The notes under the pieces are model-generated. The model was given only the letters and a program-made list of their open reading frames with translations. It had not been told where the DNA came from and did no database searches. The position numbers and the translations under genes are program-made. Below, piece by piece: positions 1 through 36,733 of a DNA stretch of 64,000 nucleotides (positions are counted from its first letter, which is position 1; the number at the start of each line of letters is the position of its first letter). Origin of the DNA: Negativicutes bacterium (GTDB lineage Bacteria; Bacillota_C; Negativicutes; Sporomusales_B; JARLHX01); the NCBI GenBank assembly GCA_031292035.1, contig JARLHX010000274.1:1-64000 (forward strand), written 5' to 3'.

Positions 1-1797
1 AACAAGGTTGTCAAGCCATTCCGGGTGCTCAACATCAGCCGGGATCAGGATATGCGACGCAAAATTTCCTGTCTCGAATATATCGAGGAAATCTACACTG
101 AAGCTACGGATATTCCCGATGTCAATTATAGCGAGCTGGAGATAACAACCGAAGTCAGCAGCATAAGCGTATCTGAAGAAACCTACCGGCAAAAAGACGG
201 CACGATGATTTCCAACCTGAATGTGGCTTGGAGCGTTCCGCGCGACACACTAGTTAGCGGCTATAAAGTTTTGTATAGTAGCGACATTGGGCAAACCTGG
301 AGCGAATGGAGTAGCGGAACGGCATTAAATACTTCTATTATTGGTGTTAGAACCCAAACTAACTATTTAGTCAAGGTTTGTACCATTAGTTATGTTGGCA
401 TTGTATCAAACGGCGTTGTATCCTCCGCGGTATATGTTACAGGTAAAGATGTTCCGCCCTCAGATGTTGCAAGCTTGTCGGCTGCGCTTGATCCTGCAGA
501 TATGACGAAAATCAACCTGTCATGGTCGCCGGTAGATGATGTCGATTTAGCCGGGTACCGAATCAAAACAACTATTAAGACCGGCACAGAGATTGTCGAG
601 AACCTGGCCCAGATTACCACTTATACCTATATCGCAACCAAAGGCGACCCACACACTTTTTCGGTTACGGCTGTCGATAATTCCGGCAATGAGTCGGCGA
701 ACCCGAAATCGGTGGAAATCACGCCGGTAATATATCCGGCCGCACCAAAAGGGTTTACAGCGGTACAAAACGGCGAATACGTTTATCTTTACTGGAACAA
801 GAACAGCGAAACCGACGTCTCCGGCTACGAAATCCGGCAGGGCCCCACTTTTGACAGTGGTTCGCTTGTTCAGACCGGCATAACCGGTACCGATCTGTCA
901 GTCCCGGTTAATTCGGAAACAAAATACAGTTTTCATATCAAGGCCATCAATAACTCCGGCAACTACAGCGAGGATGCGACTGCCACGGTGGCAATCTATG
1001 GATTGCCGCCGAAAAATATGTATTTGACTTTCGATGAACTGGCATTGCAGAGCGGGACTCACTCCGACACCCAGTTTGGCGTATCGGAGTATAACTGCCT
1101 CACTTTGCCGGGCCAGTGCGACGATGACCGTTACGAAGGGTGGCAATGCAACCAGGTTGGCGGAGCCGTGGTTTTAAAACTGCAAGGCCCGCTGGACTAT
1201 ATAGAGGATATCGACTCTTTGCCAAGTTTTGACGATTTGACTGCTACGACGCCGTCGTATGGAGTGTATACTACGACGATAATAGACCTTGGGCAAGTAA
1301 TGAAGGTAAATTTAGCCGTTGATTTTATCTCCACTGCTTTATTGAGCGTTGGAAATTCATCGACATTGCGGTTTTGCTACGGGCAGGACAAGGATCATCT
1401 CGAGGAGTGGAAAGACTTTGCGCCAGTCACGCTGACGACGCAGTGTATTCAATGCCAAGTGATTTTGAGCTCGACTGACCAAGTCCCGATTGAGGTCGGC
1501 ACCTTCACTGTAAACATCGATGTCGACGATATTGAAACGACCGGTAGCACGACTGTTGCAACCGGCGGAAGCGCAATAGCCTATGGCTATACCTTCTTAG
1601 GCGGGCCGGGGCCGGATGGACTGGACGAGCCAAATGGGACGCCGATCTTTACGCCGACAGCGATCGGCGAAGGACTCAGGGCCGAGGTCATTTCCGTCGG
1701 GGTGTCGAGTGCACGTGTCAAGGTGGTAAACGCGATTAACGGCACTGACGTCGGCGGCACTATCACTTATCGAGTAAAAGGATATGGAGGTTTATAA
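1..1797 (+). CDS. Phage tail tip / host-specificity protein (3' part)
   Basis: The reading frame is open to the first base of the window, so this is the C-terminal part of a larger gene; the first GTG at 25 is internal. The opening residues (KPFRVLNISRDQ) resemble the end of the conserved core of lambda gpJ/TipJ-type tail tip proteins. Three fibronectin type III-like repeats follow (roughly residues 45-135, 140-235 and 238-330 counted from the GTG), then a beta-rich C-terminal region. Family members sit at the tail tip and contact the host surface. A tail collar gene follows 3 bases after the stop, consistent with a tail operon. The tail assignment is from family resemblance. Confidence 0.75.
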   Translation, partial: NKVVKPFRVLNISRDQDMRRKISCLEYIEEIYTEATDIPDVNYSELEITTEVSSISVSEETYRQKDGTMISNLNVAWSVPRDTLVSGYKVLYSSDIGQTWSEWSSGTALNTSIIGVRTQTNYLVKVCTISYVGIVSNGVVSSAVYVTGKDVPPSDVASLSAALDPADMTKINLSWSPVDDVDLAGYRIKTTIKTGTEIVENLAQITTYTYIATKGDPHTFSVTAVDNSGNESANPKSVEITPVIYPAAPKGFTAVQNGEYVYLYWNKNSETDVSGYEIRQGPTFDSGSLVQTGITGTDLSVPVNSETKYSFHIKAINNSGNYSEDATATVAIYGLPPKNMYLTFDELALQSGTHSDTQFGVSEYNCLTLPGQCDDDRYEGWQCNQVGGAVVLKLQGPLDYIEDIDSLPSFDDLTATTPSYGVYTTTIIDLGQVMKVNLAVDFISTALLSVGNSSTLRFCYGQDKDHLEEWKDFAPVTLTTQCIQCQVILSSTDQVPIEVGTFTVNIDVDDIETTGSTTVATGGSAIAYGYTFLGGPGPDGLDEPNGTPIFTPTAIGEGLRAEVISVGVSSARVKVVNAINGTDVGGTITYRVKGYGGL

Positions 1798-2938: not shown

Positions 2939-3496
2939 ATGAGCCAGTCAAACCTTTCCATTGCCAATAGTGATGGCAGAATATTCCGGTTGAATGTCAG
3001 CGCCGCTTTACAAGCCCTGGGATCTATGTTTTACGGACCGAATGATCCGGCGACTCTTGGCTATACCGTGGCCGGGGCGTTTTGGGCGGACTCCGGCAAT
3101 CACCTTTTCAAACAACGCAATACGGACAATACGGCGTGGATAAAAAAAGGCAACCTGCTTAGTGACGGAACCATTCAGATTGCCGCCGATGTGATTGGCT
3201 TTACGCCGGCCGGCAATCTTTCCAGTACCAATGTGCAGTCTGCCCTAGCCGAGCTTGCCAATAAATTCAACTCCGGCAATGCCTTTCCTACCACGAATTT
3301 GGTGCAAGGTATGCTTTTTTTCAGGACAGACCTTAATCAATTATTCGAGCTAAAGGATTTGATACCGTCCTGGGTCCTGGTCTTTGACCTTAATAAGACG
3401 ACAACAAGCAAAGAATATGTCGACGCGCAAATCGCTACAGTTACTGCCTACAACATTCCGACCTCCGATGGTGGTGGGAATATTTGGATAGGGTAA
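2939..3496 (+). CDS. Putative phage tail fibre-associated protein
   Basis: 185 residues with an ideal AAGGAGG ribosome binding site 7 bases before ATG. The sequence contains short repeated features of phage fibre shafts, such as FTPAGNLSSTNVQSALAELANKF, a motif family common in tail fibres (SSTNVQxAIxEL). Its stop overlaps the open frame of the following Cys-rich tail protein, so the two are probably translated together. It could be a fibre base or adapter for the larger protein. The tail role is inferred from these motifs and from position. Confidence 0.6.
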   Translation: MSQSNLSIANSDGRIFRLNVSAALQALGSMFYGPNDPATLGYTVAGAFWADSGNHLFKQRNTDNTAWIKKGNLLSDGTIQIAADVIGFTPAGNLSSTNVQSALAELANKFNSGNAFPTTNLVQGMLFFRTDLNQLFELKDLIPSWVLVFDLNKTTTSKEYVDAQIATVTAYNIPTSDGGGNIWIG

Positions 3497-3507: not shown

Positions 3508-5946
3508 ATGGGTAAAATCACTAAACAACTCCATTATAGAAAATCCGGGTCGGCAAATGCGATTAACCTGTATGGAGCTAGCGCGGATGTAGGCGGCAAC
3601 AGAATATCAGTAAGAGATGCCGGAAATACGGCTTACGCGCCGCTCGGGTTACCAGGTGATATAGGCTCAACTAATCTTCATATTCGGAAATATCCGACAG
3701 CTCCTGTTAACGCTACCTGGGCATCAGCTACTGCCGGGATTTTAACCACGGTTGCCGGCAGTATTTCTAAAACAGGGGGAGCAGCCAATACTTGGGATAA
3801 CGTTGCTGTTTCGAATGAGACTATAGGCGCCAATCAATATGTCTCTGCAGTTGCCGGAACAGGATATGCAATGATTGGTTTGGGGCCAGTTAGCCCGACA
3901 GTTGGCTATACTGGTATCAACTTTGCTGCATATAATCAGAATGGTAATCTACAAGTATATGAATCTGGTGTCAATAAAGGCAGTTTTGGTGCTGTAGTAG
4001 CTACAGACGTTTTGACCGTTGCTTTCGAAGGAAAATATGTTAATTATTATAAGAATGGAGCCAAATTCTACACAAGCGCTTCAACACCAAGCGGGATTTA
4101 CCGAGCCAACATAGCCATATATACATCTTCGATGGCTATTACAAGTATCAAAGCTGGCGGAGACTGGGTAGCTTTATCGTCTGTCCAAGACCCGACTATG
4201 CTCAGCAACGGTGGCGTAACCAACAGCGGCTGTACAGTCAATCCGCCGACACCCATAAGTACACTCGGCAGTCAGCCAATTACACCAACCCTTCTACGAA
4301 ATGTAACATATTCTGGAAACCTTTGCGTTAAAGTAGCTGGTACTAATGGAGGGTGGGACGGAGGATTCTCTTCTGTAGATACATTCCCTCCTGGATCAGA
4401 AGTCGCAGTGACGGTAGAAACTCCCAACATGAATTGGATGATTGGATTTAGCTATACTGATCCCGACGCTAACTACACCTCTATCAGATGGGCATTTTAT
4501 GTCGCTGGTGGATATCTACAGGTATATGAAATGGGTGCGTGTACTTATGCTGACCCAACAAATAACCAGTTAATGACGTGTGGAATAGGCGATATTTTAA
4601 GAGTACGGTATGATGTCAACGGCATGATCTCGTTCATTAAGAACGCAACCGTTTTATATACTAGCGCAAATCTTGCATCTGGGAACTTAATCTTTGATTG
4701 TACTGTAGATCAATACTGCACCCCCTTCGGTTATGTCACCAAAACAGTGTACCCGGGAGGTTCTTTCTACGGTTGGGGAAACAATGTTGCAGTTGGATAC
4801 TATGGTGTAGTAAACTTCGTAGAACCTACCAATGCTTCAATCAATAACCAGTATACAATTAACCTGAGGAAAACCATCTCCCTGTCTGATGTGGATCATT
4901 TTCAGCTATTCTATGGAGATACTACAGCATGTAGCTCTGCAGGACCAACTTGTGCTCCTTCCGGAACGACCATCACGGTCATGCTGAATTCAATCACCGC
5001 CAAGTATTTCTATGTGGCAGCGATCAATTCAACCGGTACGAAACTGTACACTACACCGGTATACGGGCCTGTCAATCCAGCGTATACTTCCGTGGCTTCA
5101 CAACTTGCCAGTGTGCAAATCTTTGCTGCTAACTCGGCGGGCACAATCCAGTCTACTGTATATTCCGGGGCACCTACCATCACCAACGGAACATGGTATA
5201 TCGGTGGTACAGGGACATTACCCAATCGTTATTATTATGTGAGAAGCACTTACAATAATGCCCCTTCCGGAGATCCTGGTTATCTTCAAAGTGCGTTGGC
5301 CTGTGCCGACACCTGTTCCTGCAACTGCAACTATTGCACCTGCAACTGCAACTATTGCACCTGCAATTGTAACTATTGCACCTGCAATTGTGACTATGCT
5401 CCATGCAACTGTGGCGGGTGTGGATGCTTTAGAGCAGGAACAAAAATTCTTATGGCTGACGGAACAAAGAAAAATATCGAAGACGTTGTTGTCGGTGAAC
5501 TAGTAATCGGCATGGACGGCAAACCATCTAAAGTGTTCAATGTTAAAGTTGTTCCTCTTGAAGAACAAGTTTGGATGACAATGGAAGATGGTAGCATTTA
5601 TAGCACTGGCGCACATTTCTACTGGGGCAGACTATCAGACAAAGAAGGTTGGGGATGCAGCGCATCCGAAGAGCACGATGAAAAAATTCGTGCAGGTCTT
5701 AAACCGAATCTTAAAGAAGGTTACCTCGACTTCGAAGATGCCGAAGTAGAATATGCTACGATAGACGGCTGGAAAAGGAATCGGTCAATTATTATTTCAG
5801 GTGATCCAGAAGAAATGATCTATCAACTTGAAGTTGAAGGGAGCCATTCTTACATTGCCAATGGTTATGTCGTCGGCGGCAAAGTAACAGACGAAGATTT
5901 TGATTATCAAACTATTCAATGGGAAGGCTTAAAATTGAATGCTTAA
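3508..5946 (+). CDS. Tail-like protein with Cys-rich heptad repeats and C-terminal Hint domain
   Basis: 812 residues from ATG 3508, chosen because GGGGGAG lies just before it; an open frame extends upstream to 3484. The N-terminal ~450 residues hold two similar beta-sandwich segments (SPRY/LamG-like; both contain NGNLQVYESG/GGYLQVYEMG). A beta-rich linker follows. Residues 599-640 contain 17 cysteines, including three CNCNYCT heptads and a degenerate CNCDYAP. At Cys640 a Hint domain begins (CFRAGTKILMADG) with a block-B TGAH (Thr700, His703) and a block-F-like GSHSYIANGYVVGG (from residue 778). There is no terminal His-Asn, so only hedgehog-type N-terminal acyl shift is expected. The following transporter gene overlaps by 8 bases, and five radical SAM genes lie downstream. 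Function unknown; I infer that the Cys tract is modified and released or attached through the Hint thioester. Confidence 0.8.
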   Translation: MGKITKQLHYRKSGSANAINLYGASADVGGNRISVRDAGNTAYAPLGLPGDIGSTNLHIRKYPTAPVNATWASATAGILTTVAGSISKTGGAANTWDNVAVSNETIGANQYVSAVAGTGYAMIGLGPVSPTVGYTGINFAAYNQNGNLQVYESGVNKGSFGAVVATDVLTVAFEGKYVNYYKNGAKFYTSASTPSGIYRANIAIYTSSMAITSIKAGGDWVALSSVQDPTMLSNGGVTNSGCTVNPPTPISTLGSQPITPTLLRNVTYSGNLCVKVAGTNGGWDGGFSSVDTFPPGSEVAVTVETPNMNWMIGFSYTDPDANYTSIRWAFYVAGGYLQVYEMGACTYADPTNNQLMTCGIGDILRVRYDVNGMISFIKNATVLYTSANLASGNLIFDCTVDQYCTPFGYVTKTVYPGGSFYGWGNNVAVGYYGVVNFVEPTNASINNQYTINLRKTISLSDVDHFQLFYGDTTACSSAGPTCAPSGTTITVMLNSITAKYFYVAAINSTGTKLYTTPVYGPVNPAYTSVASQLASVQIFAANSAGTIQSTVYSGAPTITNGTWYIGGTGTLPNRYYYVRSTYNNAPSGDPGYLQSALACADTCSCNCNYCTCNCNYCTCNCNYCTCNCDYAPCNCGGCGCFRAGTKILMADGTKKNIEDVVVGELVIGMDGKPSKVFNVKVVPLEEQVWMTMEDGSIYSTGAHFYWGRLSDKEGWGCSASEEHDEKIRAGLKPNLKEGYLDFEDAEVEYATIDGWKRNRSIIISGDPEEMIYQLEVEGSHSYIANGYVVGGKVTDEDFDYQTIQWEGLKLNA
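5320..5403 (+). repeat. Coding tandem repeat, four 21-bp units (CNCNYCT)
   Basis: Four in-frame 21-bp units at 5320, 5341, 5362 and 5383 encode CNCNYCT three times and then CNCDYAP. The copies differ at wobble positions (TGC/TGT, AAC/AAT), so selection on the peptide rather than a very recent duplication is plausible. Confidence 0.9.
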
Positions 5947-7195
5947 AAAAGTAATCGTTTCCAGTATGATCGGTTCTATAGTTGAAAGATATGATCTATC
6001 TTTATACGTCGCTATGGCAGGGATAGTGTTTAACAAACACTATTTTCCTGCCAATGACGCAACTTTGGCACTTATAATGGCATTTATGACAGTAGCTATA
6101 GGACATATAGCTAGACCGTTTGGTGGGTTACTATTTGGTCATTTTGGAGATAAAATTGGCCGGAAAACAATGCTGCTCTTTTCGCTCATACTTACAGGAG
6201 GGGCAACCGTCGCTATAGGACTTTTGCCGGTATACGACAGCATTGGGATAATTGCTCCAATACTGCTATGTATGTTTAGATTTTTACAAGGATTTGGACT
6301 AGGCGGCGAATGGGGCGGAGCAGCTTTAATGGTATTTGAGCATGCTCCAGAACATAAAGGACTTTATGGAAGTATCCTTCAAACGTCACTACCAATTGGC
6401 TTATGTCTGGCGTCAGGAGTGATAACCATAATAATAGGATTAACCTCACAAGAAGCCTTCGTGGCCTGGGGATGGAGGATTAGCTTTTTATTAAGTGCTG
6501 TGCTGGTTTTCATTGGTATTTGGATTCGGCTTAGCATTAAAGAAACTCCAGCTTTCGAAAAAATCCGCAAATCTCAGAAAACAGTAAAAACGCCAGTTAT
6601 AGAGTTGATTGAAAATAATATAAAACAAGTCATACTCGGTATAATGGCTCGTCAAATTGAAGGAGTAATGTATTCCATTTTTGGCATCTGGATTATTAGT
6701 TTTCTAGCGAAAAATCTGGCTGTTTCGCTCAACGATACTCTAATCGGAATTACAATTTGCGCTCTAACAATGTGTGCTTGTCAGCCTTTCTTTGGATGGT
6801 TATCTGATAAGATAGGCAGAAAACAAGTATATATGTGGGGCAGCCTTGCATGTGGTATTCTAACTTGCATTTCGTTGCTTTTCATACAATCAAACCCAAC
6901 AAATATTGTATTGCTATGGATTGCAATGGCAATTCCTTTTGGAGTCGCTTATTCAGCGATATTTGGTATAGAATCCACACTATTATGTGAGATGTATCCT
7001 ACTAAAGTTAGGTTTACCGGAATATCAATCGTTTATCATTTTTCAACCTATTTTTGTTCGGCGCCTACACCAATAATTGCAGTATTGCTGTATTCGCAAT
7101 TCAACAGTCTTTTACCTGTAGGTCTTTTCGTCCTACTTTGCGGCTTTATTAGTGCATTAGCGATTAAACTCATGAAAAATGAACAGGAGGAATGA
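5939..7195 (+). CDS. MFS transporter, metabolite:H+ symporter-like
   Basis: 418 residues with about 12 hydrophobic segments. Motifs of the metabolite:H+ symporter (ProP/ShiA-type) branch of the major facilitator superfamily are visible: GSIVERYDLSLY at the start (family norm is GxxxEWYDFxxY), RPFGGLLFGHFGDKIGRK for the loop 2-3 motif, and FLQGFGLGGEWGGA. It starts inside the end of the Cys-rich Hint gene (8-base overlap), so the two are probably translationally coupled, although this family normally carries small organic solutes. The substrate is unknown. It could move a precursor or a released product of the modification system, or be an unrelated passenger. Confidence 0.85.
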   Translation: MLKKVIVSSMIGSIVERYDLSLYVAMAGIVFNKHYFPANDATLALIMAFMTVAIGHIARPFGGLLFGHFGDKIGRKTMLLFSLILTGGATVAIGLLPVYDSIGIIAPILLCMFRFLQGFGLGGEWGGAALMVFEHAPEHKGLYGSILQTSLPIGLCLASGVITIIIGLTSQEAFVAWGWRISFLLSAVLVFIGIWIRLSIKETPAFEKIRKSQKTVKTPVIELIENNIKQVILGIMARQIEGVMYSIFGIWIISFLAKNLAVSLNDTLIGITICALTMCACQPFFGWLSDKIGRKQVYMWGSLACGILTCISLLFIQSNPTNIVLLWIAMAIPFGVAYSAIFGIESTLLCEMYPTKVRFTGISIVYHFSTYFCSAPTPIIAVLLYSQFNSLLPVGLFVLLCGFISALAIKLMKNEQEE

Positions 7196-7386
7196 TGCCA
7201 ATGACTGGTACAGTACAACTAATTATGCCAACCTATTGTATTGTAACAGGTGATAACAACCAACAATATTGGTGTTATCTACAACCTGATACAGAAGAAT
7301 TCGTTACGGGAGAAGCCGTTTCTTTTGATGTAGTGGCCAATGCCAGGTTTTCACAAGGCATCAACCTAAAGAAAGCGGGTGAATAA
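7192..7386 (+). CDS. Small OB-fold / cold-shock-like protein, 64 aa
   Basis: ATG at 7192 (ATGATG) overlaps the transporter stop by 4 bases and has AGGAGG just before it; the second ATG at 7195 or the one at 7201 could be used instead. The pattern GTVQLIMPTYCIVTGDNNQQYWCYL...FVTGEAVSFDVVANARFSQGINLKK follows the beta-strand layout of a cold-shock domain (GTVKWFN...GFI..D....V.FH...L..G..V.F.V.......A.NV), but the RNA-binding aromatic motif (KGFGFI, VFVH) is not conserved. It may be an RNA- or peptide-binding accessory protein. The fold assignment is inference only. Confidence 0.6.
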   Translation: MMPMTGTVQLIMPTYCIVTGDNNQQYWCYLQPDTEEFVTGEAVSFDVVANARFSQGINLKKAGE

Positions 7387-7387
7387 A

Positions 7388-8950
7388 ATGAGCATAGGCA
7401 TACCAGTACAACTGCCAAATGATCTTGTGGCAACTCAAGAAACAATTCGTCAGACATTATATCAAAAACGACTTGCTGGAGACGATACAAAGATATATAA
7501 CGATGACTTTATGAACAATACCCTTCTTCCTCAGGTTAATGCATTGGAGTCGTTTTTGCGGCAAACTTGCCTTACAGATGGTAACTATATAGTGGACCCC
7601 ACAGGTGTCTTTCCCGGTATGAGCTGTACAGGGCAGTATATTTCATGGCTATTGATGAATGTAAAACTGTTCATGTACTGGACTATTGGACAAGATGCTT
7701 ATACTTCGTGGGGAGAAAAATTAGTTCAGATTATTACCGATTTTCAACAGTACGTTGAAGATATGGCATCAAAAGACGGTATGTGTGCCGTATTAGTAAT
7801 TGATGCATCGAAGACCCTTGCATTTACAGGCAATGAAGAAGAGTCATGGGAGAAACTGAACAGTGCTGCCACACTTCTTAGGGGAATTGACCCCTCCACT
7901 CTGAATTGGGTTTCGTATTCATATGTTTTAACTGACATGGGAGCGCAAATACCTAATGCAGTAAATAAAGCCTCGATATACTTCTGGAAAGCATTGATAG
8001 ACTATGCGTTTATTCGGTATGACGACGATAAATTAACTTCGGCCGGTATTGATCGCATTGTTTTGTTCTCTAGTTGGATCGATACGTTTTTCGAAGCAAA
8101 AGAAACCGGTATTAACCCACGTTTTGCTGCGTATATCCCCTGTATATATCCTGCACAATGGAGTGCGTTTAACAGAGTTATAGGGGATATTTGGGACAGC
8201 ACTACGATGTCTTCAGAACAAAAGATTCTTTCGCTTACAAAGTTTTCTGTTGTGAAAGATTATATTGACACATTTCATCTTCACCAGGGCAATGTAACGG
8301 CAGATAATAAATACGACACTGGCAATGGGGTAAGCCCAACAAATTCTCCCACGACAATCCCATTTACAGGAATTGAAAGTTGGTTGTCAGGGGAATTTGT
8401 CAATCTTATATCATCTCCTAAAGGAGCTAGTATAACAACTGATATGTTATCTGCTATGAAAAATGTTGACGGGGTGTTTGAAAAATTCTGTGATTTATTA
8501 CAGAATTTTTTTACTGCAACCGAAAACGCAGTAACGATCATTGGAGATAATTTCCCAGTATTTTATCAAAACATACTTCAGTTGGAAGACGACACATTGA
8601 CCAGCATGGTTGCTGATAGCATAGCAAAGGTTAGATTGTATGCTTTGGCGACTGAATTATCAAACACAATATCAGATATTAATCAGCGTAAAGAATACTC
8701 CCCAATAATAAACGAAATGGAAGCTAAATATATTCTCACTACAAATCTTCCAGCAGAAAACAATAAAACAATCAATATCGTATTTGACCGTAAAGAAGGA
8801 TTTGATCTTCTGACATTGACTGATTTGGGCGGAAAAAGTACTGAGTTGCCAGTAACGATCGACAATTATTTTGCCCAGATGCAGCCTTCAGTCAGCGGAA
8901 GCACAATTGCATCAATAGGATTAGACACCGTATTTATTACTGTCAAATAA
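7388..8950 (+). CDS. Unrecognised 520-residue protein of the radical SAM cassette
   Basis: ATG at 7388 is chosen; the frame also permits GTG at 7379 overlapping the previous stop. The protein is largely helical by composition, has only four cysteines, no signal peptide and no obvious membrane segment, and ends in a beta-rich segment (TINIVFDRKEGFDLLTLTDLGGK). I recognise no family. Its place between the transporter and the first radical SAM gene, with only 18 bases to the latter, suggests a dedicated role in the system, such as a scaffold, immunity or recognition protein, or a structural virion component. Confidence 0.6.
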   Translation: MSIGIPVQLPNDLVATQETIRQTLYQKRLAGDDTKIYNDDFMNNTLLPQVNALESFLRQTCLTDGNYIVDPTGVFPGMSCTGQYISWLLMNVKLFMYWTIGQDAYTSWGEKLVQIITDFQQYVEDMASKDGMCAVLVIDASKTLAFTGNEEESWEKLNSAATLLRGIDPSTLNWVSYSYVLTDMGAQIPNAVNKASIYFWKALIDYAFIRYDDDKLTSAGIDRIVLFSSWIDTFFEAKETGINPRFAAYIPCIYPAQWSAFNRVIGDIWDSTTMSSEQKILSLTKFSVVKDYIDTFHLHQGNVTADNKYDTGNGVSPTNSPTTIPFTGIESWLSGEFVNLISSPKGASITTDMLSAMKNVDGVFEKFCDLLQNFFTATENAVTIIGDNFPVFYQNILQLEDDTLTSMVADSIAKVRLYALATELSNTISDINQRKEYSPIINEMEAKYILTTNLPAENNKTINIVFDRKEGFDLLTLTDLGGKSTELPVTIDNYFAQMQPSVSGSTIASIGLDTVFITVK

Positions 8951-8968: not shown

Positions 8969-9814
8969 ATGAAACGTATACAATTAATGATCACAAGCAG
9001 TTGTAACTCAACTTGTTCATATTGTATGTCTAAAGACATAACGGGAGACGAAACCCAAATTGACCCTAGCTTCTTAGACAAAATAGATTTTACGCGTCTT
9101 CTATTATTTGGTGGCGAACCGCTTCTTTATAAAGATCTATGTGATAAATTCAGGGACTATGCCCTTTCTAGAAACCTAGAAATAGTACTACCTACTAATG
9201 GTTTGTTGCTTACAGAAGAGATAATAGAACAATATCCTCGTATCCTGATAAGTTCCAATGGCACTAAAGAGTCAAGCGAACTAACTAGACAGCCCTATAT
9301 CCCTAAACTATTGTCTTTCGAACACAAAGAGAAATGTTGTATTGGGCTGCGTATAATACCAGAAACTGCCGATAGGTTATATATCGACTTTAGATATTTC
9401 TGGGATGCCGGCTATAGATTATTTAATATTGCCCCGATAGCAGAAAATGATTGGGATGATTCAGCGCTTAATTCTTATCGAGACAATATTATCAAAATCC
9501 TACAAGACACAGAACAAGGACAAGTGTGGAACTGGCGATGTGGTGGAATATGTGTACCATACAATAAAACTTATTGTATCGATCAGTTCGGAGAAGAATG
9601 GGCATGCGCTCGGTATTATAGCGAAAAAATTCGAATTAAAAGAATTCCTGAAAAATATTTTCAGAAATGCCTGAAATGCGATAACAGAGATTACTGTTAT
9701 TTTAATTGCCACTACTTAAACCTGATTAAAACAGGAACTATGGTTATGCCCTATCCCACAGTATGCAAATTTGCCCAGATTCATCGGGAGGCAACAGAAT
9801 GTACGAAAACTTAG
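8969..9814 (+). CDS. Radical SAM/SPASM-type maturase 1
   Basis: 281 residues. The radical SAM CxxxCxxC motif is at Cys12, Cys16 and Cys19 (SSCNSTCSYC), and the GGEP SAM-binding motif follows (LLLFGGEPLLY). The C-terminus holds a Cys cluster (CGGICVPYNKTYC, WACARYY, CLKCDNRDYC, FNCH, TVCK) consistent with auxiliary iron-sulfur clusters of a SPASM domain. Such enzymes often act on ribosomal peptides by forming thioether or carbon-carbon links. It is first of five adjacent radical SAM genes and overlaps the second by 16 bases. Its substrate is inferred to be the Cys-rich tract at 5302-5427. Confidence 0.85.
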   Translation: MKRIQLMITSSCNSTCSYCMSKDITGDETQIDPSFLDKIDFTRLLLFGGEPLLYKDLCDKFRDYALSRNLEIVLPTNGLLLTEEIIEQYPRILISSNGTKESSELTRQPYIPKLLSFEHKEKCCIGLRIIPETADRLYIDFRYFWDAGYRLFNIAPIAENDWDDSALNSYRDNIIKILQDTEQGQVWNWRCGGICVPYNKTYCIDQFGEEWACARYYSEKIRIKRIPEKYFQKCLKCDNRDYCYFNCHYLNLIKTGTMVMPYPTVCKFAQIHREATECTKT

Positions 9815-10731
9815 ATATCGCGAGATTAAAGTACATTATGACAATGGATTGTAACTTTAGATGTGATTATTGTTTTGAAGGTGGAAAATCGAATAAAAAT
9901 CTTAACGTCAATGAAGCAATTGTCATTGGGAAACAAGTTCTAGATGAAATGACCCAGAATAAACTGACCATATTGTATTTTGGCGGAGAACCACTGCTCC
10001 GCTTCTTCGACGTTCAGGCTATAACAAGCGCTTTAACTGTTCATGCCAAAAAAATTGATAAAGATATTCAATTTACAATAATTACGAACGGGAGCATCCT
10101 GACACCTTTAATGACAAATCACTTTAAACGATACAAATACTTCGTATCAGTAAGTTGTGACGGCATTGCTGCGGCCCAAGATGAGCACCGAGGATATAAG
10201 GGATATAAGAAGTCATTTGATAGGGTATTAAGCACCATAAAAATATTAAACAGTGAAACGAAAGATTTATGTATCTCTATGGTAGCAACAAAACATAATG
10301 TCAAATATTTGGTTGAAAGTTTTAAATTCTTTCTAGAAGAAGTTAAGATCAATAACTTTGCCATTTCTCCAGTTCTGGATAAACAACAATATACTCCTGA
10401 TCCAGAAGAATATAAAGAACAACTTATGAGGTTGGCCGATTTGGCGGCAAATTGTGGTAGAAAAATAGTCTTAAACCCGCCATTAGACAAGCCTTGGGAG
10501 GAAGACAATGTCGCCCGCAAAATGGCCATGACGAGTAAATCAGTCAACATAGAGATAACACCTTTGGAAGTTAAAATAGTAAAAGAAGTCGATGATAAAC
10601 TGACGATTGATTATGGTACTCATGCAAAACTACAAAATAACCCTGCCTCCAAAGAACTTCGCTTAGCCATTATTGGTGCTGAAAAAGAAGCTCAAAAATA
10701 CTATATAGAATTACAGAAGGAGCGAATATAG
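9799..10731 (+). CDS. Radical SAM protein 2, lacking a SPASM cysteine cluster
   Basis: 310 residues from ATG 9799, which has GGGAGG 7 bases upstream; the frame extends back to 9763. CxxxCxxC is at Cys18, Cys22 and Cys25 (DCNFRCDYCFEGG) and YFGGEPLLR follows. Unlike its four neighbours, the C-terminal third contains no Cys cluster, only a helical and charged tail (LAIIGAEKEAQKYYIELQKERI). It may be a partner subunit, or an enzyme that has lost its auxiliary clusters. The stop TAG shares its last base with the next gene's GTG start. Confidence 0.85.
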   Translation: MYENLDIARLKYIMTMDCNFRCDYCFEGGKSNKNLNVNEAIVIGKQVLDEMTQNKLTILYFGGEPLLRFFDVQAITSALTVHAKKIDKDIQFTIITNGSILTPLMTNHFKRYKYFVSVSCDGIAAAQDEHRGYKGYKKSFDRVLSTIKILNSETKDLCISMVATKHNVKYLVESFKFFLEEVKINNFAISPVLDKQQYTPDPEEYKEQLMRLADLAANCGRKIVLNPPLDKPWEEDNVARKMAMTSKSVNIEITPLEVKIVKEVDDKLTIDYGTHAKLQNNPASKELRLAIIGAEKEAQKYYIELQKERI

Positions 10732-11780
10732 TGCCACATCTTAATCTAGGCATAGAAACAACCTCAACTTGCCAGCTGGGGTGTAAGTTCTGCTATAATC
10801 AACACCAAATGGATTGTCATCAGAAAATCCCTATGGAAACATTAAGGGAGCTTCTCAGACAAATTACCAGCAATTCTATCCACTTCAGAAGAATAACATT
10901 GACCGGCGGAGAACCATTCACAAGTATGGATACTTTGATGTTTATCTTATCTGAATACAAAGACGTAACTGATGATATAAGAATAAATACCAATATGCAA
11001 AAAATGACAGAAGACATTGCTGACGAGATAATTAAAGCCAATCGCAATGCATTTTGTTTCTCTTCTTTGATAGCAACAAATAAAGAGGCATTTGATGACA
11101 TAACAGGAGTAACAGGGTCTTTCAACACTCTGAAAAAGTCTATTAAAACAGCAACAAGCAGAGGATTACACTGTGCTTTATCGTTGATAATAAACAAAGA
11201 GACTTTTGATCACAAAAGTATACTGCAATTCGTTGACTTGTGTCGCGAATATAACATTCAACATGCAGGAGTTAAGAAAATGCGCTTACCATTATCAGGT
11301 TCTGCAGAGAACTTTAGCTATGTAAGCAAAATCTTACCTTCTGTAGAAGAATATATTAAGGGAATAGATTATTTGCTAGAAGAATGCAATAAGTACAATA
11401 TCTTAGTTAGTTGCGGAGAACCTGTGGCTATGTGTCACTACCCTGACGATGCTAAATACAGTAGATTAGTACATCAGTGCGGCGTTTCTAACCTGGCATC
11501 TGCGGTCGTATCGACACATGGAGGAGTAAGACCATGCCCATTTTTACCTCTCAGTTATGAAATGGGCAATATCTTTACTGATGGATTTGTAGCAGCCATA
11601 AATAATCTTGAAACGTACTTCCAGAACATACTTGATAACCATGAATGTAATGGAGTCTGTGAACACTTTAATACCAGCAAATGTGCTGGTGGGTGCTATG
11701 TAGACACTTTGGCGCATGGTTTAAAAATTACAGACAAAGCACCATTTTCTTTTGGTGTTACAAAATATGTGAATTTATAA
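10731..11780 (+). CDS. Radical SAM/SPASM-type maturase 3
   Basis: 349 residues from GTG 10731, with AAGGAG about 8 bases upstream. CxxxCxxC at Cys14, Cys18 and Cys21 (STCQLGCKFC), GGEP motif (LTGGEPFTS). The C-terminus has the SPASM pattern: HQCGVSNLASAVVSTHGGVRPCPFLP, then HECNGVCEHFNTSKCAGGCYVD. This layout (C..GG.RPC......C..GGC) is close to the PqqE/NirJ style of SPASM proteins. It is likely a peptide-modifying enzyme acting with its neighbours; 15 bases separate it from the next gene. Confidence 0.87.
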   Translation: MPHLNLGIETTSTCQLGCKFCYNQHQMDCHQKIPMETLRELLRQITSNSIHFRRITLTGGEPFTSMDTLMFILSEYKDVTDDIRINTNMQKMTEDIADEIIKANRNAFCFSSLIATNKEAFDDITGVTGSFNTLKKSIKTATSRGLHCALSLIINKETFDHKSILQFVDLCREYNIQHAGVKKMRLPLSGSAENFSYVSKILPSVEEYIKGIDYLLEECNKYNILVSCGEPVAMCHYPDDAKYSRLVHQCGVSNLASAVVSTHGGVRPCPFLPLSYEMGNIFTDGFVAAINNLETYFQNILDNHECNGVCEHFNTSKCAGGCYVDTLAHGLKITDKAPFSFGVTKYVNL

Positions 11781-11795
11781 TCGGGAGGAATAACT

Positions 11796-13034
11796 ATGAA
11801 AGAAATTCACGGAGCGTCAATTATCCTAACAGAAGGATGTAACCTTAGTTGCTCTTATTGTTACGAAAAGAAAAAGTCACCTAGTAATATGGATTCAAAT
11901 ACTGTTACGAAAGCAGTTGATTTCGTTTTCGACCATTCGAACGATACAAAAAAACTTTCTTTCATCTGGTTCGGAGGCGAACCATTGACGCAGTTCAACA
12001 ATCTTACCCATGGATATACATATGCAAAAAAGAAAGCAGAAACAGTAGGAAAAACTCTTGACAACCTGATCATTACAAACGGCACCATCTGGAACGAAAT
12101 GATCGAAGAATTTTTCCGGAAACATCCAGATATTCGCCTACAGCTCTCATGGGACGGTATGCCGGAATTCCAGGATAAAGAGCGTGGAATGTCTGATGTC
12201 GTAGAGGAAACCCTGGCACGAATGGTAACGTTGCCGAATAGTCTTCATGCCCACCTACAGATTACTCCGAATATGGTGCCAAAACTGGCTGAAAATATCG
12301 ATTATATTATTGCTAAGATGGGCAACAAAGCAAATGTAGTGCTGCGGCCTATCGCGGAAATTGAAGATTGGGACAACGAAGCCCTGCTTTCAACTTTTCG
12401 GGAGCAGCTCTTTATCGCTTTCAGTAAACATGAAAACAAGATTGATAAGATTGCAACTTGCGATCAACAGGTAGCTTCCTTAGGAACATGCGGCGCCGGC
12501 AAGAACTTTGCAACTATTACTCCAGACGGCGATCTCTATGCTTGTCATCGGTTCTATTTTAATAAAAACCGAGACTTTAAAGTCGGTACATTAGACGATG
12601 GATTTATCACTACGGCAAAAACAGATCTTCTGGAAGAATATACGAAAGACAATATTATTGGTTGTATCGAATGTAATGCCTATGAAATGTGTGATCGCTG
12701 TATCGCAGCCAACTTTAGCGAAAGCTTTGACGCACTGATGCCAACAGATTCTAACTGCAAAGTTTATTTGTCACAGTTCTATGCCGTTTTTAACTATATG
12801 AAAGTCAAACGGCCTTGGACAACAACTTATCAACCAAAGCCGATTCTAAGGATCGCAGCTATACCAAAGGAAGCAGATCTGAATGAATTCATAGTTGATA
12901 ATATTCTCCCAATGATTTATGAACTCCAAAGCAAAACCGATTGGCTAGAAGATCAAAATCAAAAACTTTCAGCTAAGGTGGAATACTATGAGAACTCTCG
13001 CCGGACTCAAAAACGTCCTTCTGTTCATAACTAA
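11796..13034 (+). CDS. Radical SAM/SPASM-type maturase 4 with C-terminal coiled-coil tail
   Basis: 412 residues; ribosome binding site GGGAGG before ATG 11796. CxxxCxxC at Cys15, Cys19 and Cys22 (GCNLSCSYCYEKK), WFGGEPLTQ motif, and a SPASM region TCGAGKNFATITPDGDLYACHRFY...CIECNAYEMCDRCIAANF...DSNCK, the arrangement seen in anSME/QhpD-like peptide maturases. It has about 100 residues after the SPASM cysteines, including a likely helical segment LQSKTDWLEDQNQKLSAKVEYY that could mediate complex formation. The last 47 bases overlap the next gene. Codon usage here looks less AT-rich than in maturases 1-3. Confidence 0.88.
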   Translation: MKEIHGASIILTEGCNLSCSYCYEKKKSPSNMDSNTVTKAVDFVFDHSNDTKKLSFIWFGGEPLTQFNNLTHGYTYAKKKAETVGKTLDNLIITNGTIWNEMIEEFFRKHPDIRLQLSWDGMPEFQDKERGMSDVVEETLARMVTLPNSLHAHLQITPNMVPKLAENIDYIIAKMGNKANVVLRPIAEIEDWDNEALLSTFREQLFIAFSKHENKIDKIATCDQQVASLGTCGAGKNFATITPDGDLYACHRFYFNKNRDFKVGTLDDGFITTAKTDLLEEYTKDNIIGCIECNAYEMCDRCIAANFSESFDALMPTDSNCKVYLSQFYAVFNYMKVKRPWTTTYQPKPILRIAAIPKEADLNEFIVDNILPMIYELQSKTDWLEDQNQKLSAKVEYYENSRRTQKRPSVHN

Positions 13035-14001
13035 TCAATGTAACTTAAAATGTGAATATTGCTATGTACAGCAGGATTCTCAGGTCATGGACTTAAGCCT
13101 AGCGCTAAAGGTAATAGACAATATTGATGATGGTACTGTCATCGATTTCTTCGGCGGCGAACCAACCTTAGAAATTGATATGCTTCAGAGTATTGTAGAC
13201 TATGCCAAAGACAATGGTCGCCAAATCGTTTTCCAGCTATTCACCAACGGTACTCGTTTTGACGACAAGGTTAAGAAATTGATCGAGTCGGGGGTAAACC
13301 CCGGAGTATCTTTCGATGGTCTGGGATCTGATCTTCGCAACCATAATGAACATACAACCTTCAAGATTCTTGAAAACATCAAAAAGCTGCAGAAGATCTC
13401 CCCTAATATCGGAGTCAAATGCGCGATCACACCGCAAACTGTCCATTATCTATCCGATAACGTCAGATATTGCGTGAATCTGGGCCTAAAAAAGATAAGT
13501 CATTTTGTCTTGCGTGAAGATGTTTGGGATGATACATCACTGAAAGTTTTTCAAGAACAACTGCAGCAACTTATCCCATATTACATCAATAATTTTGATG
13601 TAGTTAACCTTGGTTATTTCAACGGCCTAATCATTGAAAATAAGAGGGAGGCATCCTGCTGGGCCGGCCGGGAAGGTGTGGCTATAAACTTTAACGGTCA
13701 CCTCTATCCTTGCCAGCGATTTCTCACAAATGGATCTCCATTTATTATCGGCAATGTCGACCATGGAATTACCAATACCATTTTTAAACGGTACAAGATT
13801 GCCAACCTTGTCGGTTGCCCGAATTGTGAGATTGTGAATCGGTGCAATAATATGTGCATCGCCTGTCAATGGGAGCACGGAACCATGCTTAAGCCGATTG
13901 ATAGTGTCTGCAAATTGACTAAAATCCTTTTCAAGGAGATTGAGCCGCTTCAGGCCATCAAAGATAAAATCGAAGAAAGAATAAATAATTACAAGAGGTA
14001 A
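12988..14001 (+). CDS. Radical SAM/SPASM-type maturase 5
   Basis: 337 residues from ATG 12988 with AAGGTGG upstream, starting inside maturase 4 (47-base overlap). CxxxCxxC at Cys18, Cys22 and Cys25 (QCNLKCEYCYVQQ), FFGGEPTLE, and SPASM cysteines SCWAGREGVAINFNGHLYPCQRF...CPNCEIVNRCNNMCIACQWE...SVCK. Maturases 4 and 5 share the same overall SPASM layout and may derive from duplication. It closes the cassette: the next gene is a phage-type membrane protein. Confidence 0.88.
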   Translation: MRTLAGLKNVLLFITNQCNLKCEYCYVQQDSQVMDLSLALKVIDNIDDGTVIDFFGGEPTLEIDMLQSIVDYAKDNGRQIVFQLFTNGTRFDDKVKKLIESGVNPGVSFDGLGSDLRNHNEHTTFKILENIKKLQKISPNIGVKCAITPQTVHYLSDNVRYCVNLGLKKISHFVLREDVWDDTSLKVFQEQLQQLIPYYINNFDVVNLGYFNGLIIENKREASCWAGREGVAINFNGHLYPCQRFLTNGSPFIIGNVDHGITNTIFKRYKIANLVGCPNCEIVNRCNNMCIACQWEHGTMLKPIDSVCKLTKILFKEIEPLQAIKDKIEERINNYKR

Positions 14002-15778: not shown

Positions 15779-16519
15779 TTGCGAAAATATCTTTTAAAAC
15801 CTGACCGCGAGGATATGCGATATAAGCTATTTACTCCGCAATTTTATCGGGCATCTAACTATCTGCCTAGTAAGGTCGATTTGCGCTTCGCTATGGGCCC
15901 GGTGTTTGACCAGGGCGCGCTTGGAAGTTGCTCTGCCAATGCACTTGCCTCGCTGCTAGCCTATACGCATTTAAAAAATCGGGCTACCTCCGCTTGGGAG
16001 GTGTTCTCCCGGCTGTTTATCTATTATGAAGAACGGCAAATAGAAGGTACAGTTGACGCGGACAGCGGCGCGATGCTTTGCGACGGCATCAAAGTGCTTG
16101 AAACTTTCGGAGCATTTCCGGAATCAGAAGATCAATATAAAATTATTGATTTCACGCAGCCTCCCACGGCGCAAATGATCCGCGATGCAGCGCCGTACCG
16201 TATAAAGGCTGCTCACAGAATTATAAACCCACATTTTTTAAAGGCGGCACTAGCTGAGAAACAATGCGTAGCAATTGGCATGAGCGTCTTTCAGTCGATG
16301 GAATCTGAAGAAGTAGCAAATACGGGTATCGTCCCGATGCCGTGTGTCGGGGAAAAGTTGATGGGCGGGCATGCTGTCCTGGTAGTCGGCTACGACGATG
16401 CCAAAGGAATGTTCATCGTGCGTAATTCGTGGGGCGCCGCGTGGGGCGACCAGGGGTATTTCTATCTGCCTTATGGGTATTGGGAATATATCTCTGATGC
16501 GTGGACAACCAACGGTTAA
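15779..16519 (+). CDS. C1A-family (papain-like) cysteine protease
   Basis: 246 residues from TTG 15779 with AGGAGG upstream. The catalytic Cys is in DQGALGSCSANALASLLAY, the His in GGHAVLVVGYDD and the Asn in VRNSWGAAWGDQGYF, giving a complete papain triad; the Gln of the oxyanion hole is in FDQGALGSC. No signal peptide or long pro-region is seen. In a lysis-type module it could help degrade host envelope proteins, process virion proteins, or mature the Cys-rich tail protein upstream; the last is speculation. The fold assignment is secure. Confidence 0.88.
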   Translation: MRKYLLKPDREDMRYKLFTPQFYRASNYLPSKVDLRFAMGPVFDQGALGSCSANALASLLAYTHLKNRATSAWEVFSRLFIYYEERQIEGTVDADSGAMLCDGIKVLETFGAFPESEDQYKIIDFTQPPTAQMIRDAAPYRIKAAHRIINPHFLKAALAEKQCVAIGMSVFQSMESEEVANTGIVPMPCVGEKLMGGHAVLVVGYDDAKGMFIVRNSWGAAWGDQGYFYLPYGYWEYISDAWTTNG

Positions 16520-20559: not shown

Positions 20560-21204
20560 GTGTATGTACCAATACTGAATGGTTCCAAGCGATATGGTAA
20601 TAATCGATGGCTAACATATAGTCCCAAATTAAAGAGAAGTGTGTGGCTGTATAGTGATCTTGAATATGACCACTGGATATTAGTCGAAACTAATCCCAGA
20701 GTTAAATCTTTTTGTGAGCAACCATTACGAATTAGAAGAACCGTAGATGGATATATAGTAGAAACAATATTTGATATGTGGATATTGTTTATAGATGAGG
20801 AAGAGAAATATATTGAAGTCAAATATTCAAATCAAATTGGAGTCTTGCGTACTACAAGACAAATCCGAGCACAACAATATTGGTGCAGTGAAAATGGACA
20901 CGAGCATTTAGTTCAAACCGAGATTGAAATACGAAATAACATCATCTACTTGGAAAACATGAAGAAGATACTATATTACTCGAAACAGTATGATACTCCT
21001 TCGGAATATAATAAAGGTTTGATTCTTGCTGAAATGGATACCTCACGCAAAGTGCAACTTAATCAGATTATTAAAGCGGTATCCACACTGACTCAAAATC
21101 AGATTATAGGCATATTAAGTGCGTTATGTGTAGAGGGATCTATTAATGCAAATTTAAATGAGGAGAAGTTTGGTTTTACAACGGAGGTATGGTTAAATGG
21201 CTAA
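20560..21204 (+). CDS. tnsA: TnsA-like transposon endonuclease
   Basis: 214 residues from GTG 20560. The motifs SDLEYDHWILVETNPRV (catalytic Glu region), IFDMWILF (Asp) and EEKYIEVKYS (ExK) match the TnsA endonuclease core, which cuts the 5' ends of Tn7-like elements. A C-terminal helical part would contact TnsC in canonical Tn7. It overlaps tnsB by 8 bases, so the pair is co-translated. Region is AT-rich, as usual for transposons. Confidence 0.82.
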   Translation: MYVPILNGSKRYGNNRWLTYSPKLKRSVWLYSDLEYDHWILVETNPRVKSFCEQPLRIRRTVDGYIVETIFDMWILFIDEEEKYIEVKYSNQIGVLRTTRQIRAQQYWCSENGHEHLVQTEIEIRNNIIYLENMKKILYYSKQYDTPSEYNKGLILAEMDTSRKVQLNQIIKAVSTLTQNQIIGILSALCVEGSINANLNEEKFGFTTEVWLNG

Positions 21205-22633
21205 TAAAAAAATACTTGAAAATGCTAAATTTGCTCCGGAATATTTGGATTATAACAAGTGGCCTACCGTTAACGAAGTTGACTTCAACAATAAAGACCA
21301 TGAAAGGTTCTTGGCCCGTAAAAAAGCAGTGGAACTATATTTGGACGGCAACCTCACAAACGGTGAAATAGAGAAATTGACTAAAATTTGTACCAGAGAA
21401 ATCAACCGATATATACATCGTTGCCTGGAAACAGACGAGAATGGCCTAATATGGGGATACCGGGCCTTAATACCCAGTAAAAGAACACACGCTTACATCA
21501 GGAAGGCCGATACTTCAGCATCTTGTTCTGCGCTCACCGGGGCATTTGAAAAATTACTTGATAGTCACCCCAAAATACGTGATTTGATCCATGACCTATA
21601 TTTAGGACGGAAAAGCAGGAAGAATGCTATGATAGAACTTAGAATTAAACCCAAAATGATATGGAGGAGATTCATAGAAGCATGTCGGCGTGAAGGCATT
21701 GATGAGACGATGTATCCTTTAAATACGATCGGCTTAGCGAAGCGTTCGTTAGAGCGTTATTTGAAAAAAATAAATTGCCGATTCTTCCATGAAGCCGCAA
21801 GTAGATATGGGGCGGAGGCCGAACGTAAAGTCCGCTCATTTGGACAGAATGCGAATCACCTTCCGATTTTATGTCCGTTTCAAACTGTAGAATTTGATGG
21901 TCACCGTATTGATGCACTCTTCGCAATTGAATTTCAGACCCCATTAGGGGATAAGTTCACCAAGATTATGGACAGATTTTGGATACTCGTAATCATAGAT
22001 GTAGCAACTAGAGCAATACTAGGTTATTATCTAAGCCTAAGTAAAGAATATTCTTCAATTGATGTTCTAGCATGTATACGTAATGCAGTTATTCCATGGC
22101 AACCAAAACAATTCACTATCCCAGGGTTGAATTATCCGAAGAATGGAGGGTTCCCATCAGGTGTATTGGCTAATGCTCAATGGGCAATTTGGCAAGAATT
22201 CAAGGTTGATAATGGGAAAGCAAACTTATCTAATATAGTTACGGAAAGATTAACGCGTCTTATCGGTTGTTCGATTAACCCGGGCCCGGTTAGTCATCCG
22301 GAATACCGTGGGTTTGTTGAACGATGGTTTTTATGGATTGAAGAAAATGGATACCATCGGTTGCCAAGTACAACAGGTAGTGATGTCAAAGATTCGCGTA
22401 GAAAAGATCCGGAAAAACAAGCTGAAAAATACCATATTTCATTGCAACATTTAGAGGAATTAACCGAAGTTTTTATTGCCCGGTACAATGGGACCGCACA
22501 TGGAGGACTTTGCAACCTCAGCCCATTAGAGGTAATGCGACAAAGATTAGAGCGTGAAACAATCAATGTAATTCCTGAAGAATTGAGAGATAAAATATCA
22601 TTTATGACATTTCAAGCAGAGCGCCGCCAATAG
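21197..22633 (+). CDS. tnsB: TnsB-like DDE transposase
   Basis: 478 residues. The integrase-core catalytic residues can be placed at VEFDGHRIDALF (Asp), FKVDNGKANL (Asp) and GFVERWF (Glu). N-terminal helix-turn-helix segments precede (NGEIEKLTKICTREINRYIHR) and a C-terminal region of the Mu-C type follows (NGTAHGGLCNLSPLEVMRQR). TnsB binds end repeats and does 3'-end strand transfer. It is complete, but no tnsC ATPase follows, unlike most Tn7-like operons. Confidence 0.85.
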   Translation: MANKKILENAKFAPEYLDYNKWPTVNEVDFNNKDHERFLARKKAVELYLDGNLTNGEIEKLTKICTREINRYIHRCLETDENGLIWGYRALIPSKRTHAYIRKADTSASCSALTGAFEKLLDSHPKIRDLIHDLYLGRKSRKNAMIELRIKPKMIWRRFIEACRREGIDETMYPLNTIGLAKRSLERYLKKINCRFFHEAASRYGAEAERKVRSFGQNANHLPILCPFQTVEFDGHRIDALFAIEFQTPLGDKFTKIMDRFWILVIIDVATRAILGYYLSLSKEYSSIDVLACIRNAVIPWQPKQFTIPGLNYPKNGGFPSGVLANAQWAIWQEFKVDNGKANLSNIVTERLTRLIGCSINPGPVSHPEYRGFVERWFLWIEENGYHRLPSTTGSDVKDSRRKDPEKQAEKYHISLQHLEELTEVFIARYNGTAHGGLCNLSPLEVMRQRLERETINVIPEELRDKISFMTFQAERRQ

Positions 22634-22644
22634 TCACTTGGATT

Positions 22645-36618: not shown

Positions 36619-36733
36619 TTCATGTTGTTAAGCAATCATTATTACATGTTTTATTATTGTTAATACTGGCAGGAGATACTTTCTTTTTATGGAACTATTG
36701 CTACTAATGACACCATTGATCGGGAGGACCACA

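Follow-up and report, generated by a model that had tools for sequence, protein, structure and literature searches.

A phage fibre-like protein carrying a cysteine heptad tract and a Hint domain beside five radical SAM genes

The window analyzed here is a 64,000-nucleotide stretch of a Negativicutes bacterium (contig JARLHX010000274.1, positions 1 to 64,000). Among phage tail genes near its start lies an open reading frame (ORF) of 812 codons whose product combines a fibre-like part, a tract of cysteine heptads, and a C-terminal Hint domain, and five radical S-adenosylmethionine (radical SAM) genes, r1 to r5, follow on the same strand (Table 1). A Shine-Dalgarno-like stretch, GGGGGAG, precedes the start codon of the fibre ORF. 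A frameshift artifact was rejected as an explanation for this composite protein, since the ORF is continuous and its relatives have the N terminus and tract, or the Hint domain, in common with it.

The cysteine tract and the Hint domain

The tract holds 17 of the protein's 26 cysteines within 42 residues and reads CADTCS-CNCNYCT-CNCNYCT-CNCNYCT-CNCDYAP-CNCGGCG-C, with three perfect heptads and one degenerate copy. The 17 cysteines and the heptad count, given in a preliminary description of the stretch, were confirmed, and the chance of such a density is ~3e-22 in a binomial model that uses the protein's own background cysteine frequency. The same description placed a Hint domain directly after the tract, with the last tract cysteine as its nucleophile, and this was borne out. 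The Pfam family Hom_end_hint starts at residue 640, which is that cysteine (E 4.8e-12, above cut-off), and an AlphaFold2 (AF2) model of residues 637 to 812 reached a predicted local distance difference test (pLDDT) score of 93 and a predicted template modeling score of 0.89. The model matched Hint-fold structures, namely BIL2, BIL, and hedgehog, by both Foldseek and VIA-align, and the domain was accordingly classed as a member of the Hint fold. Pfam returned Hint families only, and no S74 domain, at the C terminus of the window protein.

Both Hint motifs are present: Cys1 is C640, and the TxxH motif is TGAH at residues 700 to 703. Across 25 aligned proteins, Cys1 is invariant and the TxxH histidine is at least 90% conserved. 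Residues 779 to 791 read SHSYIANGYVVGG; the terminal His-Asn of inteins is missing, as residues 788 to 791 are VVGG and only a 21-residue tail follows. The ORF closes with a conserved DY...W tail and a stop codon, and the Hint domain lies at the C terminus, followed by a similar tail, in all six fibre proteins inspected (those of the window, P0002, JWF, 2-1, PSTNGR1, and P0004). Intein splicing was rejected because the C-terminal HN is absent, so that the pairing of His-Asn with a C-extein nucleophile does not occur here. Cleavage at a Hint thioester is plausible: the domain has Cys1, TxxH, and the Hint fold and lacks the C-terminal HN, and the tract forms the end of sibling proteins. The preliminary description had suggested that the tract might be cleaved, ligated, or lipid linked via this thioester; cleavage thus retains its standing, and for ligation, as for the attachment of a lipid or sterol, which we considered, no evidence was found.

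The N-terminal and middle part of the protein resembles phage proteins that carry the tract. Residues 1 to 245 are 42% identical to P0036, which ends at its tract without a Hint domain (...CNCNYTPCSCSSGN; the end is also given as ...CNCNYCTCNCNYTPCSCSSGN). Weaker or shorter matches were found to P0017, P0015, P0022, P0024, and P0019, which have at least their first 60 residues in common with the window protein and all terminate at the tract. Since this N terminus is common to tract-ending proteins and a tail collar/tail fibre protein is encoded nearby (1801 to 2562), we infer that the window protein is a virion fibre. The preliminary description had likewise read the N-terminal part as a fibre; that reading stands on the neighboring gene and the common N terminus, as the full-length AF2 model (mean pLDDT 48) was of poor quality outside the Hint domain. 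Against annotated phage records, the window protein matched four, in the Hint part only. The 185-residue ORF just upstream resembles the N-terminal module of other Hint fibres (49% over 55 residues to residues 31 to 85 of P0002, E 1e-14; 40% over 81 residues to the JWF fibre P0051), and the window fibre may therefore be divided between these two ORFs.

All five radical SAM ORFs contain the CxxxCxxC core motif. PF04055 was above cut-off in r1 to r4, the four that were scanned with Pfam, and r5 was matched by NCBIfam and PHROGs radical SAM models. A SPASM-like cysteine motif is present in r1, r3, r4, and r5; in the Pfam scan of r1 to r4, a SPASM match, below cut-off, was found in r4 only. Among the best 25 NCBIfam models for each protein, every one scored under its cut-off, the best being PapB (170.6 of 340 bits). 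The PapB model matched r4 (E 5e-50) and r5 (E 1.4e-45), while the quinohemoprotein amine dehydrogenase (QHNDH) maturase model TIGR03906 matched r4 (E 2.6e-33) and the CXXX-repeat maturase model TIGR04115 matched r5 (E 3e-31), all under cut-off. Among solved structures, 5wgg (E 4e-39), which we take to be CteB, a thioether-forming peptide maturase, is nearest to the r5 family. Because these are the nearest models and structure, thioether formation is our best guess, by analogy, for the chemistry. The r5 protein is 34% identical (E 1e-45) to an enzyme, L006:910-1962, encoded beside a tract of 28 motif copies; when r5 was aligned at full length with nine enzymes from tract loci (alignment A1), the core and SPASM-type cysteines were invariant.

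Table 1. Features at the fibre locus of the window
Feature	Position	Strand	Remarks
FN3-domain protein, phage tail gene	25-1797		At window start
Tail collar/tail fibre protein, 253 aa	1801..2562	+	phrog_8469, E 1.5e-23; phrog_1800 (tail collar fiber), E 3e-19
185-aa ORF	2939..3496	+	C-terminal part resembles N-terminal module of other phage Hint fibres
Fibre-cysteine tract-Hint ORF, 812 aa	3508-5946	+	ATG at 3508, stop at 5946
Fibre-like N-terminal and middle part, residues 1-598	3508..5301	+	Identity to tract proteins
Cysteine heptad tract, residues 599-640	5302..5427	+	CxCNYCT repeats, ending in the Hint Cys1
C-terminal Hint domain, from Cys640	5425..5946	+	Pfam, alignments, AF2, Foldseek, VIA-align
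MFS metabolite:H+ symporter-like protein	5939..7195	+	TIGR00883, E 4e-109, under family cut-off
64-aa ORF	7192..7386	+	No family above cut-off
523-aa ORF	7379..8950	+	No family above cut-off
Radical SAM r1	8969..9814	+	Core CNSTCSYC; SPASM-like Cys 234-247; Pfam E 2e-7; phrog_1802 E 1e-17
Radical SAM r2	9763..10731	+	Core CNFRCDYC; no SPASM-like Cys set; Pfam E 1.8e-12; phrog_1802 E 4.5e-25
Radical SAM r3	10731..11780	+	Core CQLGCKFC; SPASM-like Cys 306-322; Pfam E 9e-19
Radical SAM r4	11796..13034	+	SPASM-like C terminus; Pfam E 1e-10
Radical SAM r5	12988..14001	+	Full-length relative of tract-associated phage radical SAM-SPASM enzymes

Tracts, Hint domains, and radical SAM genes in phages

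A degenerate pattern for CxCNYCxCxCNYC was used to search IMG/VR and a collection of one genome per species (84,980 species). It recovered 42 viral contigs from IMG/VR, which form 16 clusters (the largest of 20 contigs), and a single stretch from the species collection, on a metagenome-assembled contig in which a radical SAM-like ORF was also recognized by its motif. Fifteen Campylobacter phage records, with four phages entered twice, encode a tract protein; that of CP220 is CPT_0180, with six annotated 21-bp repeats. A tblastn search with one tract protein, P0005, gave no match in annotated phage records. P0005 and P0007 are identical except that one tract has nine heptads in the former and four in the latter, indicating that tract length varies by repeat expansion or contraction.

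Tract proteins end in different ways. Among 64 distinct C-terminal ends, a set that includes near-duplicates and omits ORFs running off the locus, the last repeat lies no more than 16 residues from the terminus in 17, a short SDxxLK stub follows in 19, an S74-like domain (found by Pfam in both of those scanned) in 8, a Hint domain in 6, and some other short end or tail in 7; the tract is internal in the remaining 7. Besides the window protein, a Hint or Hint-like domain follows the tract in P0004 (no Pfam match, with a BLAST match to the window Hint), P0008, P0009, P0021 (Pfam match just under cut-off), and P0041 (recognized by eye only); in P0047, a CSGxC-type tract precedes the Hint domain. 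Judged from these sequences, the Hint is one of several C-terminal domains that follow such tracts, and the tract system is widespread.

Radical SAM genes accompany the tract. PF04055 was above cut-off in 38 of 42 tract contigs, compared with 4 of 47 control contigs (median length, 65 kb for tract and 34 kb for control contigs), and by lineage in 15 of 16 tract clusters. Controls were loci found with arbitrary patterns (3 contigs from the first pattern and at least 119 stretches from the second; 122 loci); the 47 used here were those, among 83 of these loci, whose contig was no shorter than the smallest tract contig (13,287 bases). The tract contigs held 303 radical SAM matches in 3.77 Mb and the controls 17 in 1.95 Mb, or 8.0 versus 0.9 matches per 100 kb at E 0.001 or better. 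Among contigs of at most 60 kb, a match was present in 15 of 18 tract contigs versus 3 of 40 controls.

The pairing was also approached from the enzyme side. A search of viral contigs with r5 as a single protein confirmed no relative; a search with alignment A1 returned at least 600 stretches and at least 389 relatives, of which the best 80 were used. A CxCNY tract was found at 35 of these 80 loci, one of which (L226) is probably spurious, being weak and on the opposite strand. An ORF with at least 9 cysteines per 40 residues was present at 60 of the 80 loci but at none of the 122 control loci. Of the 58 contigs outside the tract set, 12 had a CxCNY tract, 24 another cysteine-dense ORF, 11 an ORF with 8 cysteines per 40 residues, and 11 none; the cysteine-rich ORF and the radical SAM gene lay on the same strand in 47 of 47. 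One radical SAM family thus adjoins several types of cysteine repeat (CxCNYCT, CSGxC, CTCTCT, and CxxCxxC), which suggests, at the level of sequence, that one enzyme group serves several cysteine-repeat substrates. CSGxCSGxC-like repeats beside r5-family enzymes (L185, L187, L190, L235 to L238, L249, L251, L256, and L257) perhaps form a parallel substrate class, and (Cys-Thr)n proteins of the CECTCTCTCTC... type lie beside radical SAM genes at L202, L209, L217, L218, L229, L233, L241, and L244. Separately, the tract phages L022, L031, and L048 have radical SAM-like ORFs of other types that lie several kilobases from the tract and may serve a different function.

A search with a Hint alignment yielded 108 viral relatives, of which the best 80 were used. 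Six of these loci (L263 to L267 and L337) have at least two cysteines in a CxC run just before Cys1. Radical SAM was above cut-off in all six of their contigs and in 13 of the other 74, which include two (L331 and L340) whose Hint start was not located (Fisher P 9e-5, counting related contigs: L263 resembles L266, and L264 resembles L265). Five of the six contigs have one radical SAM match each, positioned downstream of the Hint gene, and L267 has two matches. One of the six, L266, is the sequence of Achromobacter phage JWF, in which a gp36-like fibre, the run NCNCDCNCNCSC, and a Hint domain are joined in PJWF_00028 and an enzyme annotated as anaerobic sulfatase-maturating, the radical SAM protein PJWF_00030, is encoded two genes further on; phage 2-1 has a similar layout. 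In JWF, 2-1, and the five further contigs of this set, a radical SAM ORF begins 0 to 1.9 kb downstream of the Hint ORF. A cysteine tract with a Hint domain and no radical SAM gene, the case that would have counted against the preliminary description, was sought among these contigs and not found.

Collectively, it is highly probable that radical SAM enzymes are linked to the cysteine tract, a link strongly supported by the co-occurrence. The functional pairing of tract/Hint fibre and radical SAM enzymes in the preliminary description gains the same support from the tract, reverse, and Hint comparisons.

A possible maturation pathway and its rivals

What we observe are the tract, Cys1 and TxxH, a Hint fold predicted with confidence, five radical SAM genes, and two pairings, tract with radical SAM and CxC-Hint with radical SAM, that recur in other phages. 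We lean, if slightly, toward a tail fibre maturation module, in which radical SAM-SPASM enzymes are predicted to cross-link the C-terminal cysteine repeat and the fused Hint domain would then cut itself off. The enzymes would act on the tract, most likely forming cysteine thioethers as their relatives PapB, CteB, and QhpD do, to judge from the enzyme family. The Hint domain would catalyze an N-S acyl shift at Gly639-Cys640 and, since it lacks the terminal Asn, would release the fibre by thioester cleavage instead of splicing, with water as the simplest nucleophile. Such cleavage would give the window protein an end equivalent to P0036-type tract ends, and the mature fibre would have a rigid, cross-linked, probably trimer-stabilizing tip. 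Comparable tips would form in tract proteins whose natural end is the tract and in those with an S74-type domain at that place. S74 domains cleave themselves at Ser-Asp, as known from endosialidase work, and this would likewise leave the tract as the C terminus. A wider proposal, which we put forward tentatively and as somewhat short of probable, is an undescribed class of virion maturation, in which dedicated radical SAM enzymes weld C-terminal cysteine tracts of tail fibres into cross-linked tips, interchangeable self-cleaving ends (S74 or Hint) expose these tips, and the Hint thioester is free to cyclize with a thiol of the tract or to attach cargo.

Several findings weigh against linking enzymes, tract, and Hint domain in this way. 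Four tract contigs have no radical SAM match; their tracts lie within ~1.8 kb of a contig end, so neighboring genes may be cut off, and together they make up one of the 16 clusters. The reverse search was biased, since tract loci supplied 9 of the 10 A1 rows and the tract set already contained 22 of the 80 contigs. The 11 of 58 new loci scored without a cysteine-dense ORF include four (L185, L234, L249, and L251) with 11 to 12 cysteines per 40 residues in another count, indicating that the automatic choice of ORF was imperfect. Radical SAM matches also occur in the 13 of 74 Hint contigs without a cysteine run (for example, L272, L274, and L280), and L312, another of the 74, lacks a radical SAM match and has just one CxC, of which Cys1 is itself a part. 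Hint domains are found on fibres without a cysteine run in P0002 and Providencia phage PSTNGR1; in the latter, the 10 kb examined at the Hint locus, made up mostly of hypothetical genes, include none annotated as radical SAM. Of 43 JWF-like Hint proteins in the protein database, 20 have at least 3 cysteines in the 40 residues before Cys1 and 23 have fewer. The Hint domain therefore does not need the tract, and we rejected the notion that all Hint fibres come with radical SAM genes on the strength of PSTNGR1, the Hint contigs without a run (radical SAM in 13 of 74), and the 43 JWF-like proteins. On the enzyme side, r2 lacks the SPASM cysteines and none of r1 to r5 reaches an NCBIfam cut-off among the models compared, so the chemistry cannot be named. 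In addition, according to the available part of the CP220 report, the 11 gel bands assigned by mass spectrometry do not include CPT_0180 (PMC2853527).

The tract could instead be a metal-binding or disulfide-bonded tip, trimmed by the Hint domain, with the radical SAM enzymes acting elsewhere or helping to insert metal. We regard this as unlikely, though not negligibly so: Cys-x-Cys arrays are known to bind metals, and potential iron-binding domains are described for an Alteromonas phage tail fibre in the portion of that paper available (PMC11705849), but the range of cysteine repeats beside one radical SAM family fits a cysteine-modifying enzyme better than a shared metal site. The nearest models and structure, taking 5wgg for the maturase named above, are also peptide-cysteine modifying enzymes. 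The radical SAM genes might merely lie near the tail genes and serve as auxiliary genes in metabolism or DNA modification, as proposed for Campylobacter phages; this appears very unlikely given the contrast between tract and control contigs, the uniform co-orientation, and the single match behind the Hint gene in five of six CxC-Hint contigs. In favor of this idea, boosted host metabolism is proposed in the available text of Timms 2010 (PMC2853527), enzyme activation or DNA-protecting methylation is suggested in that of Carvalho 2012 (PMC3322345), and some tract phages have up to 16 radical SAM genes, more than a tract seems to need.

Two further alternatives concern the Hint domain. With tract and enzymes as proposed, it could be a degenerate remnant of a selfish intein or an inert fold without cleavage activity, in keeping with the missing His-Asn and with the wide occurrence of Hint domains in phages, many of them, by eye, apparently inteins in enzymes. 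Invariant Cys1, the conserved TxxH histidine, and the constant C-terminal position with a similar tail argue against this, and we give it little weight. That the thioester is attacked by a nucleophile other than water, such as a thiol of the tract, so that a ring closes or cargo is attached as in hedgehog, is less likely again: no partner or lipid-binding part was identified, and none was specifically searched for.

Neighboring genes, significance, and known systems

Around the fibre gene, the start of the major facilitator superfamily (MFS) gene overlaps the stop codon of the Hint ORF, which is unusual cargo within a prophage tail region. Downstream of r5 come a protein with a T6SS_VgrG3-like_C domain and, directly after it, a papain-family (C1) peptidase (15779 to 16519; Pfam E 6e-14, phrog_16701). 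Three ORFs at 20560 to 22965 resemble, by eye, a Tn7-like TnsA and transposase, the first of them having no PHROG match, and a large recombinase at 36689 to 38266 (phrog_95 integrase, E 5e-104) is perhaps part of a second element. From ~23 kb on, host-like genes (MutS, MutL, MiaA, Hfq, RecA, and SpoVS) were recognized by eye; with the tail genes at the start of the window, they make it likely that the element there is a prophage.

In their available portions, Timms 2010 gives the 11 to 12 radical SAM genes and the 21-bp repeat of CPT_0180 as separate, unlinked facts (PMC2853527), Carvalho 2012 calls radical SAM an unusual feature of IBB_35 (PMC3322345), and five radical SAM proteins are noted for CC_R7 (PMC12398825) and one for FNU1 (PMC6591296). 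In open-access full texts, a corpus with preprints and most subscription papers outside it, no title or abstract dealt with the repeat or with its link to radical SAM, and the repeat strings occurred in none. This agrees with the preliminary description, which knew of no system that joins a tail fibre, a cysteine repeat, a Hint domain, and radical SAM enzymes; the system is apparently a broad one among phages and undescribed.

Should the proposal hold, the chemistry of radical SAM enzymes would extend from cofactors, small peptides, and a few enzymes, where it is known, to the building of virus particles, and phage fibre tips would be covalently armored. The proposal would also explain why Campylobacter phages have 11 to 12 radical SAM genes, giving a testable answer to a question raised in their literature in 2010, namely what so many such genes do, and would offer new candidate cysteine-modifying enzymes with repetitive substrates, along with a self-removing Hint cap as a tool. 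A direct test is possible, as the isolated phages JWF, 2-1, and CP220 already have the parts.

Among known systems, the ranthipeptide and sactipeptide maturases (PapB, CteB; TIGR04115) are alike in the CxxxCxxC core with putative SPASM-type cysteines (r1, r3, r4, and r5), in the best models for r5, in 5wgg as the closest structure, and in a substrate with repeated cysteines. They differ in that the window substrate is an 812-residue fibre-like protein, not a short leader-core precursor, and in that the window enzymes are under the family cut-offs listed, phage borne, and several per substrate. QhpD, a radical SAM-SPASM enzyme, installs intraprotein cysteine thioethers in the structural subunit of quinohemoprotein amine dehydrogenase; r4 matches its model (TIGR03906, below cut-off), whereas the window has a repeat tract in place of a folded subunit, and no dehydrogenase was noticed there. 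Compared with hedgehog and BIL Hint domains, the window Hint, whose activity is predicted, sits on a phage fibre-like protein right after a cysteine tract and has its own conserved C-terminal tail. Peptidase_S74 is a self-cleaving C-terminal intramolecular chaperone of phage fibres whose fold and chemistry are unrelated to Hint; in 8 of the 64 distinct ends it follows the tract, a position filled by Hint in the window protein. The Campylobacter Firehammervirus phages (CP220 and CPt10) have the same heptad tract, in CPT_0180, together with their 11 to 12 radical SAM genes, and differ in that the tract is internal and is followed by no Hint domain.

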